Below, piece by piece: positions 3,911 through 50,445 of a DNA stretch of 64,000 nt. Position 1 is the first letter of the stretch. The number at the start of each line of letters is the position of its first letter. This stretch comes from Natronomonas halophila (GTDB taxonomy: Archaea > Halobacteriota > Halobacteria > Halobacteriales > Haloarculaceae). The notes under the pieces were generated by a model. That model did not search any database and was not told the origin of the DNA. It saw only the letters and a list, made by a program, of their open reading frames with translations. The stretch covers positions 2,170,001 to 2,234,000 of the forward strand of contig NZ_CP058334.1 of NCBI RefSeq assembly GCF_013391085.1, in the 5' to 3' direction. Made by a program: the position numbers and the translations under genes.

Positions 3911-5257
3911 ATGTTAGACAAACACACGGACGGTTCGGGACCGGAAGAAAACGGCGGGCGCGCGGGCGTTCGACGCCGCGGGTTCCTGGCTGCCGCCGGG
4001 GCCGGTGCGACGGCTGCGTTCGCCGGCTGTATCGGTGATGGTGGCGGCGACGATACGATTACGCTCGGGGCAGTGTATCTGCTGTCGGGCGTGGCCGAAC
4101 AGTTGGGGGCTTCCTCACGTGCGGCCGCAGAGGTCGCCGTCAACGAGATCAACGAGGACGGAGGCATCGACGGCCGGGAGGTCGAGGCCATCTTCCGGGA
4201 CCACGGTGAGGACCCACAGGGCCAGATGCGAAGCCTCGTCCAGGAGGAAAACGCCGACCTCATGCTGGGGCTGACCTCCTCGGGGGTGACGTTGAACTCC
4301 GGGCCAACCATCGAGCAGTTGGGCGTGCCCTTTACGCTGACCGACATCGGGACGCCGTTCGCGACCGAACCCGACGTCGAGACCTACGGCAACTACTACG
4401 AGGACGAGGGGACGGCCGCGGCAGTGCCGAACCTCTTCCGGACGAACGCGAACACGTCCATCAACTGCTATGCCATCGCGAAGTGGATCAACGACAACTA
4501 CGGGTCGGCCCGCATCGCGAACCTCGGGCCGGACTACGCCTACGGCCAGCAGTGTTGGGACTACTTCAAGGCCTACTCCGACGGACTCGGTGCCGGCCAC
4601 GAGTACGTCGCCTCGGCGTTCCCCGCCCTCGGTGCCAGCGACATGACGCCGCAGATCAATCAGGTACTCGACGCCGACCCCGACCTCGTGTTCACGAGTT
4701 TTTGGGCCGGCGACGTCGTCACCTTCGTCCAGCAGGCCGACGAGCAGGGCCTGTTCGACCAGGTCGACGACGTCTTCGACACCATCGGCGCCGACCCCAA
4801 CGGCTTCGAAGCCCTCGGCGATACGATGCCCGAAGGCCTACACTACTCCGGGTGGTACTGGGGGTCGGCCTTCGACAATCCCGAAAACGAGGCGTTCCTC
4901 CAGGCGTACGAGGAGGAATACTCGGGGACCGACGTCAACCCGTACCCGTCCTTTACAGGCGGCAGTTCCTACGCGGCTCCCTTCCTCTACAAGGAGGCCA
5001 TCGAGGCCGCCGGCAGCACGAACCCCGACGACATCATCTCCGAGATGGAGGGCATGGAGTTCACGGGCCCGCGCGGAACGTGGACCATCGACGAGGACAG
5101 CCATCAGGCCTCGGCGCCGACGGTCATCGGTGAGACGTCGATGGACGCCGACGTGCCCTACGAGGGCGTCGGCCTGACCAACACCGAGACCTACACCCTC
5201 GACCGGAGTACCGCCGAGGACCTGCTGTCCGGAAGCGACCTCCCGCCGGGTATCTAA
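3911..5257 (+). CDS. livJ: ABC transporter substrate-binding Tat lipoprotein, LivJ/amide type
   Basis: A 448-residue periplasmic-binding-protein fold of the type I branched-chain amino acid family. The N-terminus has a twin-arginine signal (RRRGFLAAAG) and a lipobox ending AFAGC, so it should be exported folded and lipid-anchored. The mature part opens ITLGAVYLLSGVAEQLG, the usual start of the family. ATG 3911 is chosen because it places the twin arginines about 20 residues in; the open frame continues upstream to 3848 with non-signal-like sequence. livM follows 7 nt later. The ligand is unknown. Confidence 0.92.
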   Translation: MLDKHTDGSGPEENGGRAGVRRRGFLAAAGAGATAAFAGCIGDGGGDDTITLGAVYLLSGVAEQLGASSRAAAEVAVNEINEDGGIDGREVEAIFRDHGEDPQGQMRSLVQEENADLMLGLTSSGVTLNSGPTIEQLGVPFTLTDIGTPFATEPDVETYGNYYEDEGTAAAVPNLFRTNANTSINCYAIAKWINDNYGSARIANLGPDYAYGQQCWDYFKAYSDGLGAGHEYVASAFPALGASDMTPQINQVLDADPDLVFTSFWAGDVVTFVQQADEQGLFDQVDDVFDTIGADPNGFEALGDTMPEGLHYSGWYWGSAFDNPENEAFLQAYEEEYSGTDVNPYPSFTGGSSYAAPFLYKEAIEAAGSTNPDDIISEMEGMEFTGPRGTWTIDEDSHQASAPTVIGETSMDADVPYEGVGLTNTETYTLDRSTAEDLLSGSDLPPGI

Positions 5258-5264
5258 GACATCG

Positions 5265-6380
5265 ATGAGTATCAGCATGCGCAGACGGCTGTTGACGGAT
5301 GAGGACCCGAAGACGTTGTTAGCGATTGCGACGGTGGTCCTCCTGCTGATTCCGCTGCTGTTTCAGGTCATCTTCGTAGGTAGACTCGCGGGCTACCACA
5401 TCTCCCTGCTTACCGAGACGCTGATCTTCGCCATCTTCGCGTCGGCGTTCAACCTGCTGTACGGGTACACCGGCCTGCTGTCGTTCGGTCACGCGATGTT
5501 CGTGGCCGTCGCCGGCTACACGGCCGCGAAGACCTTCACCGTCCTCGGGGCCTATCTCGACCTCTTCGGCGGTGTCGCGCCGATAGCCACATGGCTACTC
5601 GCGATAACCCTCGGCATCATCGTCGCCGGTATCTTCGCCGTCTTCATCGGCTATCTGGCCGTCCAACTCGAAGAGATATACTTCGCGTTGATCACGCTGT
5701 CGTTCAGTATGGCCATCTACGCGATGGCGAATCAGGACGTCCCCGGCCAACTCGGGGCAATCCTCGGCATCGGCGACGGGAACTTCACCAACGCGTCCGA
5801 CGGCCTGACGTTCATCCCCGGGGACGTCACGCTCTTCGGCGTCGAGTTTGCGCTTGTCAACCTCACGAACCCGCTGGCGTACTACTTCCTGACGGTGTTC
5901 GTCTTCATCGCCAGTATCTACGCGCTGTGGCGCATCGTCCAGTCGCCGTTCGGGATGGTGTGTAAGGCCATCCGTGAGAACCCCGAACGCGCCAGCGCGG
6001 TCGGGGTCAACGTGACCTACCACCAGTGGATGACGTTCATCATCTCGGGGCTTTTCACCGGGCTGGCCGGTGCGATGCTCGTCGTCCTGGGCGGCAACGT
6101 CAACCCGCAGGACCACGCCTACTGGACGGCCTCGGCGGCGCCCGTCGTCATGACCGTCATCGGCGGGCCGTTGTCGTTCATCGGCCCCGTGGTCGGTGCG
6201 TTCACCTACGAGTACATCCGCTGGGCTATCAGTCAGTTCCCCCTGCTGGAGGAATACTGGGAGTTCTCCTTCGGCGTACTCCTGCTCATCGTCGTGCTGT
6301 TCTTCGATAACGGCGTCGCGGGCGGTATCGACCGCCTCCGTGACCGCCTCCTCGGGGACGACGACGGCGACGCTCCCTGA
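5265..6380 (+). CDS. livM: ABC transporter permease, LivM type
   Basis: A 371-residue permease with about nine predicted membrane segments. It has the LivM signatures FNLLYGYTGLLSFGHAMF and a cytoplasmic loop containing AIRENPERASAVGVNV. It starts 7 nt after livJ and is cotranscribed with it. Heterodimerisation with LivH is expected from the family. A T-rich terminator follows 10 nt after the stop. Confidence 0.93.
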   Translation: MSISMRRRLLTDEDPKTLLAIATVVLLLIPLLFQVIFVGRLAGYHISLLTETLIFAIFASAFNLLYGYTGLLSFGHAMFVAVAGYTAAKTFTVLGAYLDLFGGVAPIATWLLAITLGIIVAGIFAVFIGYLAVQLEEIYFALITLSFSMAIYAMANQDVPGQLGAILGIGDGNFTNASDGLTFIPGDVTLFGVEFALVNLTNPLAYYFLTVFVFIASIYALWRIVQSPFGMVCKAIRENPERASAVGVNVTYHQWMTFIISGLFTGLAGAMLVVLGGNVNPQDHAYWTASAAPVVMTVIGGPLSFIGPVVGAFTYEYIRWAISQFPLLEEYWEFSFGVLLLIVVLFFDNGVAGGIDRLRDRLLGDDDGDAP

Positions 6381-23523: not shown

Positions 23524-24486
23524 ATGAGCAAGCACACTCGAACACGAACGACCGAGACGGAAACGGAATCCGAACGAGACGAAGAGGAGGTCGGCTGTCC
23601 CGAATGCGGCGGGAAACTGAGCGCCGACACCGAACACGGGGAGACCGTCTGCCGCGATTGCGGTCTCGTCGTCGAGGAGGACGAAATCGACCGCGGACCC
23701 GAATGGCGCGCCTTCGACAGCGCCGAGAAGGACGAGAAATCGCGCGTCGGTGCCCCCACCACCAACATGATGCACGACAAGGGGCTCTCGACGAACATCG
23801 ACTGGCGAGACCAGGACGCCTACGGCAACTCGCTTTCGTCCAACCAGCGCCAGAAGATGCAGCGCCTCCGCAAGTGGAACGAGCGCTTCCGGACGCGTGA
23901 CTCCAAAGAGCGGAACCTCAAGCAGGCGCTGGGCGAAATCGACCGGATGGCCTCCGCCCTCGGCCTCCCGGACAACGTCCGAGAGACCGCTTCGGTCATC
24001 TACCGCCGCGCGCTCGACGAGAACCTCCTGCCGGGCCGCTCCATCGAGGGCGTCTCGACGGCGTCGGTCTACGCCGCCGCCCGGCAGGCCGGCGTTCCCC
24101 GAAGCCTCGACGAAGTCGCCGGCGTCTCCCGCGTCGAGAAGAGCGAAATCGCACGTACCTACCGCTACGTGGTCCGCGAACTGGGTCTCGAAGTCCAACC
24201 CGCCGACCCCGAAAGCTACGTACCCCGCTTCGCCAGCGACCTCGAACTCTCCGACGAGGCCGAAAACCGCGCCCGCAAACTCCTCCAGAACGCCAAAGAG
24301 CAGGGCGTCCACTCCGGCAAATCGCCCGTCGGCCTCGCGGCCGCTGCGGTCTACGCCGCATCCCTCCTGACCAACGAGAAAACCACGCAGGCCGCCGTCA
24401 GCGAAGTTGCCGACATCTCCGAGGTCACCATCCGGAACCGGTACCACGAACTGCTCGAAGCCGAGCAGGACCTCGCCGTAGCTTAG
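23524..24486 (+). CDS. tfb: Transcription initiation factor IIB (TFB)
   Basis: A 320-residue general factor that bridges TBP and RNA polymerase. The zinc ribbon is CPECGGKL...CRDCGLVV (about residues 22-45). The B-finger region contains RGPEWRAF. Two cyclin repeats follow, the second ending EVTIRNRYHEL. The acidic N-terminal arm (TETETESERDEEEVG) is typical of halophiles, which usually have several TFBs; which paralogue this is cannot be told. There is a leader of about 60 nt if the 23434 box is used. Confidence 0.97.
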   Translation: MSKHTRTRTTETETESERDEEEVGCPECGGKLSADTEHGETVCRDCGLVVEEDEIDRGPEWRAFDSAEKDEKSRVGAPTTNMMHDKGLSTNIDWRDQDAYGNSLSSNQRQKMQRLRKWNERFRTRDSKERNLKQALGEIDRMASALGLPDNVRETASVIYRRALDENLLPGRSIEGVSTASVYAAARQAGVPRSLDEVAGVSRVEKSEIARTYRYVVRELGLEVQPADPESYVPRFASDLELSDEAENRARKLLQNAKEQGVHSGKSPVGLAAAAVYAASLLTNEKTTQAAVSEVADISEVTIRNRYHELLEAEQDLAVA

Positions 24487-24507
24487 AACACCCACTTTCT
24501 ACACCGA

Positions 24508-24546
24508 ACTTTTTGCACGGCGAGCCTTCGGCTCGCCGGCAAAAAC
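24508..24546 (+). terminator. Terminator of tfb
   Basis: ACTTTTTGCAC leads into a stem GGCGAGCC-TTC-GGCTCGCC followed by GGCAAAAAC, starting 21 nt after the tfb stop. The flanking T and A runs also pair. Confidence 0.6.
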
Positions 24547-24948
24547 TTCGATGAAAAAGACACTTCGGGCCTCCCGATGGTCGGCCCTCGGTCCCGCGCC
24601 TCACTTGGCTCACGGCTCACTTCGTTCGCCGTTCGCCTTTTCGAGACGCTCCCTATGGTCGCGTCTCGCTATCGCTCGGCGCGGCGAACCGCTTCGGGCG
24701 GGTTCTTCGACCCCGCCCTCGCGGATGCTCCGATATTTTAATTTAAATAAAGCGTAGCGAGAGGTCTGCTTCCTCTCGCTCCGTGCTGACAGAGTTACTA
24801 TCCAGAGAAGCATCCGCCTCGGGGGCGTCCGGAGGTCGCCCCCGAGGCGGTTCCCGCACCGAGCGAAGCGAGGTGCCGTAGCGCGCACGGACTGGAGCGG
24901 CGCCGAAGGCGCCGCGGAAGGAGTACGCGCGCATATTTTCCCCACGTT

Positions 24949-25009
24949 TTTGCCGAGAACCGGGGTCGCGCCCCGAAGCGGGCGCGACCCGCGTTCTCGT
25001 GCAAAAAGT
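24949..25009 (-). terminator. Terminator of the L39e-L31e-aIF6 operon
   Basis: Read on the reverse strand, ACTTTTTGCACG begins 5 nt after the aIF6 stop. It is followed by a strong stem: GAGAAC and an 11-bp GGGTCGCGCCC arm with their complements. It mirrors the tfb terminator at the other end of the island. Confidence 0.6.
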
Positions 25010-25013
25010 GGCT

Positions 25014-25676
25014 TCAGATGTAACCTAAGGCGTCCTCGATGCGACCCAACTCTGGGCCGGTCGTGGCGTCGCCGGTGATGTAGCCATAGGAGTTGGCGAC
25101 GAGGCCGGACCCGACGAGCGGGCCGCCGTAGTTGACGGTCCCGATGTCGGCGTAGACGCCGAAGAGGTCCTCGAGGAAGTCGAGTTTCTCGTCGGTGGTC
25201 TTCGGGTGACAGAGCACGCCGTCGTTCGTGACGACGGCGGCGGTGCCGACCGTCCGCACGTCGGCTATCATCCCACGCTCGACGGGCACGTCGAGGGCGT
25301 CCCTGACGGCCTGGACGGCCTTTCGGGAGAGGTCGGGATGGACGTACGCGCCCTCGTCGTTGGCGAGGACGACGTTGCCGGCGGCGTTGATGCGGCCGGG
25401 GAGTTCGACGACCGGGAGGTCGATTACGTCGGCGATGCGGTCCCGTTCGCGGTCACGAACGCGTTCGGTGACCAGCAGGCCGTTTTCGTTGCCCGCGACG
25501 AGGGCGCCGACGGTTCCGGACCCGGCGATGGTGGTCTGGACGCTCGGAACCTCGAGTTCGTCCTCGAAATCCGAGAGTAGGGACTCCTCGATGTCGGGCC
25601 GAGCGAGTAACACGTCGTCGGTGGCCCGCGCGAAAACGCCGACGTAGTCGGAACCGGAAAGCGCCGCCCGGAGCAC
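25014..25676 (-). CDS. eif6: Translation initiation factor aIF6
   Basis: A 220-residue anti-association factor that binds the 50S subunit. It opens [20 protein letters not shown], and the pentein-like repeats show as [23 protein letters not shown] and [13 protein letters not shown]. It lies 1 nt downstream of rpl31e. The L39e-L31e-aIF6 order is a conserved archaeal operon for large-subunit assembly. Confidence 0.96.
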
Positions 25677-50367: not shown

Positions 50368-50445
50368 ATGCCGAACTCCAACCCGGCAGAGGATAGAGTA
50401 AGTCGCCGCAAGGCGGCTGGTCGAGAAATTCGACCGCTCGTCTAA
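50368..50445 (+). CDS. Possible 25-codon leader ORF upstream of leuA
   Basis: MPNSNPAEDRVSRRKAAGRE and five more residues, then TAA. A strong Shine-Dalgarno (GGAGGT, 50356-50361) is spaced 6 nt from the ATG, which is rare in this window. The mRNA around it can fold: CCCAC/GTGGG before the SD, GCCGC/GCGGC at about 50406-50418 and GGTCGA/TCGACC at about 50419-50435. Codon use is atypical (AGA, GTA, CGA). The next start (GTG 50465 or ATG 50498) belongs to leuA. It could be a regulatory leader, or chance. Confidence 0.35.
   Translation: MPNSNPAEDRVSRRKAAGREIRPLV

Follow-up and report, generated by a model that had tools for sequence, protein, structure and literature searches.

How converging and adjacent transcripts stay apart in dense archaeal genomes is poorly known, and one gap in the genome of Natronomonas halophila gives this question a concrete form. 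In the window (the whole stretch of 64,000 nucleotides that was analysed), a hairpin island of about 0.5 kb (24487-25013) lies between two convergent genes, tfb, encoding a TFIIB repeat protein (23524-24486, plus strand), and aIF6, of the eIF-6 family (25014-25676, minus strand). Both neighbors had been recognized in a preliminary description of the sequence and are confirmed here; the closest relatives by aIF6 protein are Natronomonas species (80-82% identity). The same description considered that the island could be a non-autonomous element, a structured RNA locus, or an insulator between converging transcription units. What, then, is this DNA, and what might it do between two genes that are transcribed toward each other?

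Two inverted arms between tfb and aIF6

The hairpins of the island are real. The perfect 14-bp arms noticed previously were recovered (24814-24827/24837-24850) within a 17-bp arm pair of 94%, as was the perfect 12-bp inverted repeat at the island ends (24508-24519/24998-25009). The earlier count of at least seven inverted repeats holds as an excess, its exact value depending on the cut-off: when arms must reach 8 bp and loops span 3-40 nt, the island has 6 perfect hairpins, versus a mean of 0.56 and a maximum of 3 in 200 dinucleotide shuffles. Its minimum free energy is -291.8, versus -214.7 +/- 6.2 after shuffling (z = -12.4). None of 4,227 Rfam models scored over its gathering threshold on the island. 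The sole Rfam match in the window is the leuA-Halobacteria RNA leader (RF03001, 72 bits, 50382-50434).

A BLASTN search for second copies in the same genome returned 68 pieces, spread over about 40 places. These form two blocks of the island (left, ~1-125; right, ~319-527) and, when the places are read side by side, each block corresponds to an arm, and the arms share one architecture: a foot stem, the hairpin P1, an A-rich linker, the hairpins P2 and P3, a GAACC motif, and the hairpin P4, which terminates in GCGGATGC. The foot stem occurs as CGAA/TTCG, CCAC/GTGG, or GAAC/GTTC, P1 begins with TTTTTGC and finishes with GCAAAAA, and the linker reads ATGAAAAAGACAC in type A and TGAAAATATGCGCG in type B. 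Genome-wide, the P1 pattern has 49 occurrences and its reversed control has none. In the island, two copies of this haloarchaeal repeat arm, which is about 150-270 nt long, are joined in inverted orientation as a dimer. The ends previously described as mirror-image terminators are indeed inverted, being two copies of a single P1 hairpin with a T5 run on both strands, and their role in termination is predicted from those runs.

On the tfb side, the island opens with AACACCCACTTTCTACAC (24487-24504, plus strand), flush with the tfb stop codon. We interpret this segment as what is left, after decay, of the outer end of a former B-type arm, because the closest relative of this tfb gene (G317, L211) carries an intact B arm there, CGCACCCACTTTTTGCACGCTCC. 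Similar degenerate ends of 14-19 nt precede the arm at other sites of the genome. Arm A follows (24505-24730, plus strand), consisting of P1, linker, P2, P3 with a nested extension, P4, and ATGC, and is matched by the covariance models R2 (130 bits, 24505-24654) and R1 (54 bits, 24504-24731). Its P1 (24505-24550, plus strand) has the foot CGAA/TTCG, the T5GC...GCA5 frame, and the stem-loop GGCGAGCC-TTCG-GGCTCGCC. The nested extension of P3 is a three-way hairpin module of about 72 nt (24603-24674, plus strand, boundaries approximate), which recurs in closely similar form in P3 at two other loci (L012 and L029); different nested hairpins are found in P1, P2, or P4 of further arms (L015, L032, L034, L036, L043, L044).

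Arm B, on the minus strand (24806-25013), consists of the foot CCAC/GTGG, P1, the linker TGGGGAAAATATGCGCG, P2, P3, GAACC, P4, and ATGC. R1 matches it with 197.8 bits, its BLASTN copies elsewhere in the genome have 71-95% identity, and its outer end lies 1 nt from the aIF6 stop codon. The two arms are separated by a spacer of about 76 nt (24729-24805, no strand assigned) with an AT-rich core (24731-24750) and a small hairpin (24753-24783). The proposal of an RNA locus with this core as its promoter is not supported, since the spacer is the least conserved part of the dimer and the AT run is absent from the other pairs.

Placement, gain, and loss of the arms

With R1 and R2, 97 arms were found in 83 intergenic regions of the genome; such arm counts are lower bounds, taken from stretches around matches that were picked because they bear arms. 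Two arms are present at 14 places, every pair being arranged tail-to-tail, with a spacer of 57-63 nt in 8 of the 14. Beyond this genome, R1 arms are present in at least 113 of 293 genomes of the order, belonging to 34 of 87 genera, in a survey that scored eight candidates per genome, and every covariance-model match in a sample of the phylum fell within the same order. Together, these repeats apparently constitute a large family of self-folding DNA at the ends of haloarchaeal genes that has so far gone undescribed; the open-access literature yielded no earlier description of it. Beside arms in other haloarchaea, a second, larger family of nested hairpins (CCTCGAAAGCCCTCG ... CTGAAAGGGCGAG) is also inserted (L056, ~4700-5700; L201, upstream of 1501).

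The position of the arms relative to genes is precise. The outer end lies between -2 and +5 nt from a stop codon in 66 of the 97 arms, about two thirds, and a further 7 are found at 14-19 nt, mostly behind the apparent decayed end of an older arm. Another 16 outer ends lie 35-51 nt upstream of a start codon, adjoining the promoter, as judged from genes called by a codon-usage script trained on the window, for which start codons and some small genes are uncertain. In a sample of 27 arms from four further genomes (two congeneric, two from a different family), 21 lie at most 6 nt from a stop codon, and the same register is seen in most top matches elsewhere. A T5 run within 12 nt of the stop occurs at just 4 of 122 arm-free gene ends. 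Divergent gaps account for only 3 of the 83 arm-bearing regions, versus 38% of the usable spacer, that is, the spacer left after removing 40 nt per promoter (p = 2e-13). The neighboring genes are often core genes, including those for the thermosome, an EF-2-type factor, the large subunit of DNA polymerase D, the proteasome, S19e, glutamine synthetase, and FttA. Thermosome-type genes (C terminus GGMGGMM or similar) carry a flush arm at the 3' end in several genera (L117, L119-L121, L123, L125, L126) as well as in this genome (L036, L158), and this 3' end may be an old, retained arm site. Compared with arm-free genes, genes beside arms in this genome have T-rich codons before the stop (TTC, CTC, TAC) and prefer TAA or TAG over TGA, which may reflect either a target preference or a co-adaptation to termination.

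Related genomes reveal sites with and without arms. At one gene pair (L024), N. halophila (G000) has a 434 nt dimer, versus a spacer of 39-41 nt in four armless relatives (G284, G314, G315, G316), and the stop codon is common to all five; two further genomes (G318 and G321) have a B arm there. In the arm-bearing genome the ancestral 39 nt spacer was replaced and not simply interrupted, and no target-site duplication was seen at this site, where the spacer differs between species. Downstream of tfb, the B arm is intact in G317; in the window, an A arm comes after a degenerate B-type end; and no arm is present in G314, G315, G054, G041, and others, so that the site shows what appears, from the genomes compared, to be arm turnover. 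The guess of a dispersed non-autonomous element is strengthened by both the many copies and the empty sites in relatives. No very recent insertion of an arm was found, and plasmid and phage collections contained no DNA resembling the island. Three matches to the P1 pattern in viral contigs were judged to be chance, none being an arm by either model.

U-tracts, stems, and competing explanations

Each arm offers different signals to the two directions of transcription. The strand leaving the gene has one T5 soon after the stop of that gene, and the opposite strand has a pair of U-tracts in the foot and the linker, separated by 6-8 nt in nearly all arms. Two U-tracts at most 20 nt apart are found in 89 of the 97 arms and in 31 of 31 arms of relatives, versus 3.8% of random 200-mers. 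In Haloferax, a T5C sequence terminates 95% of transcripts (PMC7237163), and efficient binding by aCPSF1 of Methanococcus requires an RNA that carries two U4 tracts (PMC8716108).

The arms are best regarded, with fair but far from complete confidence, as dispersed, probably mobile, non-autonomous palindromic DNA that is kept as a bidirectional terminator or insulator. They would have spread as mobile palindromes and been retained where they act as terminators. The transcript of the adjoining gene would meet a T5 directly after its own stop codon, and an opposing transcript would come upon a pair of U-tracts with 6-8 nt between them, the arrangement that the archaeal termination factor FttA/aCPSF1 prefers, just before it could run antisense into the gene or read through into the next promoter. 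At the island, transcripts of tfb would first meet the T5 at 24510-24514 (plus strand), 24 nt past the stop and conserved in all A1/A2 arms, and those escaping it the T4 at 24936-24939 and T5 at 24947-24951, 7 nt apart (24936-24951, plus strand). Transcripts of aIF6 would meet the T5 at 25007-25003 (minus strand), 7 nt past the stop, and then two T5 tracts facing leftward transcripts such as aIF6-side read-through (24558-24554 and 24545-24541, minus strand, 8 nt apart). A dimer between converging genes, with U-tracts for each transcript, would thus close both directions, each of them twice. The earlier suggestion of an insulator between converging units gains from these U-tracts and from the placement of the arms, from which a stop of the polymerase in vivo is predicted. 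Since most genes of the genome lack an arm, termination in general does not require one.

A broader proposal, which we advance only tentatively, is that arms serve throughout haloarchaea as mobile, direction-selective transcription gates: palindromic arms spread by copying, placed with base precision at stops and promoters, and blocking transcripts that would enter the adjoining gene from behind. If this is true, genome insulation would be supplied by a domesticated transposable element.

The strongest competitor, rather unlikely in our judgment though not by a wide measure, is a purely selfish non-autonomous element (REP-, PATE-, or SMR-like), whose U-tracts would serve transposase recognition and not termination. 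It could have a short target preference (approximately TTCTAR) or be tolerated only outside genes and promoters. The dispersed and nested copies, the patchy presence, the empty sites, and the palindromes paired only by Watson-Crick rules, as expected for recognition of single-stranded DNA or cruciforms, all agree with it, as do the T-rich or TTC-rich codons before the stop and the preference for TAA or TAG over TGA; bacterial GTAG REPs likewise supply stop codons (PMC3733652). The stop-flush placement could accordingly arise from a preference for T-rich pre-stop codons without any function, and the promoter-near arms, which count against the terminator reading, would also fit a selfish element confined to tolerated DNA. 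Such an element does not readily explain the near absence of arms from divergent gaps despite much free space, nor the arms at thermosome 3' ends in several genera. Although a TTCTAR-like target accounts for the dispersal and for some of the register, a function better fits the avoidance of divergent gaps and the thermosome arms. No target-site duplication was seen. The Y1 transposase considered as a driver was rejected, the genome having a single Y1_Tnp gene with no adjoining arm motif (ACTTTTTGCA) in its 3.4 kb locus.

The covariation proposed as a check on the stems is strong both within the genome and across species; with second copies and compensatory changes both present, two of the conditions named beforehand as refuting do not hold. 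Double compensatory changes affect 17 of 42 pairs in type A (alignment A1) and 26 of 50 in type B of this genome (alignment A2). Across species they affect 41 of 50 pairs, and 94% of cells pair, in an alignment of 33 distinct arm matches from 29 loci of other genomes that was fitted to the model, which favors pairing. In shuffle controls, 0 of 500 reached the observed value, and no slide came close either. The P1 foot covaries between CGAA/TTCG and GAAC/GTTC, whereas the T5:A5 pairs of P1 are invariant (21 of 21 in A1, all in this genome, and nearly all elsewhere) while other stem pairs vary.

These changes, together with the multi-hairpin fold, the conserved single-stranded linkers, and the start of the arm right past the stop codon, would also suit a structured non-coding RNA or a 3'UTR element acting as RNA, for example as a stability or regulatory domain. 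This explanation is improbable because the stems are almost purely Watson-Crick: 12 G-U pairs in about 1,940 cells versus 51 mismatches, compared with 25 G-U pairs and 0 mismatches among the 648 pairs of 30 tRNAs from this genome (p = 3e-13, a value that is indicative only, as cells are non-independent and the ARAGORN bracket notation may omit mismatched tRNA positions). The same scarcity disfavors the earlier RNA-locus proposal. Moreover, the T5 lies ahead of the fold, so that sense transcripts should often stop before reaching it, and the island has no match in Rfam. Stems of this kind suggest a DNA palindrome, and we read the scarcity of G-U as selection on, or mutational upkeep of, palindromes in DNA. 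That GC-rich intergenic hairpins arose as noise without family kinship, their palindromes sharpened by replication template switching, is scarcely credible: short GC palindromes are abundant in haloarchaeal spacers and loops such as CTTCG recur, but the fixed order of four hairpins, the P1 motif counts (49 versus 0 reversed), the invariant linkers, and model matches of up to 228 bits, also across genera, refute it.

Because the family is widespread, sits at a fixed place at gene ends, has built-in U-tracts, and offers presence/absence pairs in sister species, it would be a ready system for testing termination. The arms would equally suit studies of FttA/aCPSF1 signals and of the conversion of mobile DNA into regulatory punctuation, and a fold that covaries strongly yet has almost no G-U pairs raises the question of what keeps DNA palindromes perfect.

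Comparison with known systems

Mobile GC-rich hairpins in spacers are also known from mitochondria, as GC clusters and double-hairpin elements, which resemble the arms and differ from them in domain and architecture. Closer are the bacterial REP, BIME, and REPIN sequences tagged by GTAG or CGTC: short palindromes in many copies, located at or overlapping stop codons, forming inverted pairs, and thought to affect termination. GTAG REPs frequently provide the TAG stop itself (PMC3733652). Unlike these, the arms are 150-270 nt long, with four hairpins and two U-tracts at fixed spacing, and their feet are CGAA, CCAC, or GAAC and not GTAG or CGTC. No RAYT-like gene lies beside an arm, and no cognate Y1 transposase (TnpA-REP) flanked by the repeat was found, so membership of the REP/BIME class fails on both the foot motif and the transposase.

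The PATEs, SMRs, and MITEs of Haloquadratum, as far as covered by the portion of their description consulted here (PMC3119063), are likewise non-coding dispersed haloarchaeal repeats with near-terminal palindromes or inverted ends and mutual nesting, and PATEs and SMRs have no target duplication. In that portion they are defined by length, ends, and high identity, and the arms are set apart from them by description only: the stop-codon register, the compensatory stems, and the terminal U-tracts are features of the arms that do not appear there. PATEs, which derive from IS605 elements, are characterized by the lack of terminal inverted repeats and by near-terminal palindromes of the IS605 kind; solo arms have no inverted ends, and paired arms do.

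In function, the arms would parallel the U-tract terminators of archaea, which also place a T5 directly past the gene or two U-tracts within about 20 nt (PMC7237163, PMC8716108), and the arms do have such tracts just downstream of genes. The T-run of an arm starts a few nt past the stop, whereas the median 3'UTR of Haloferax is 97 nt. Ordinary archaeal terminators, unlike the arms, are not dispersed homologous repeats and have no reported hairpin requirement.
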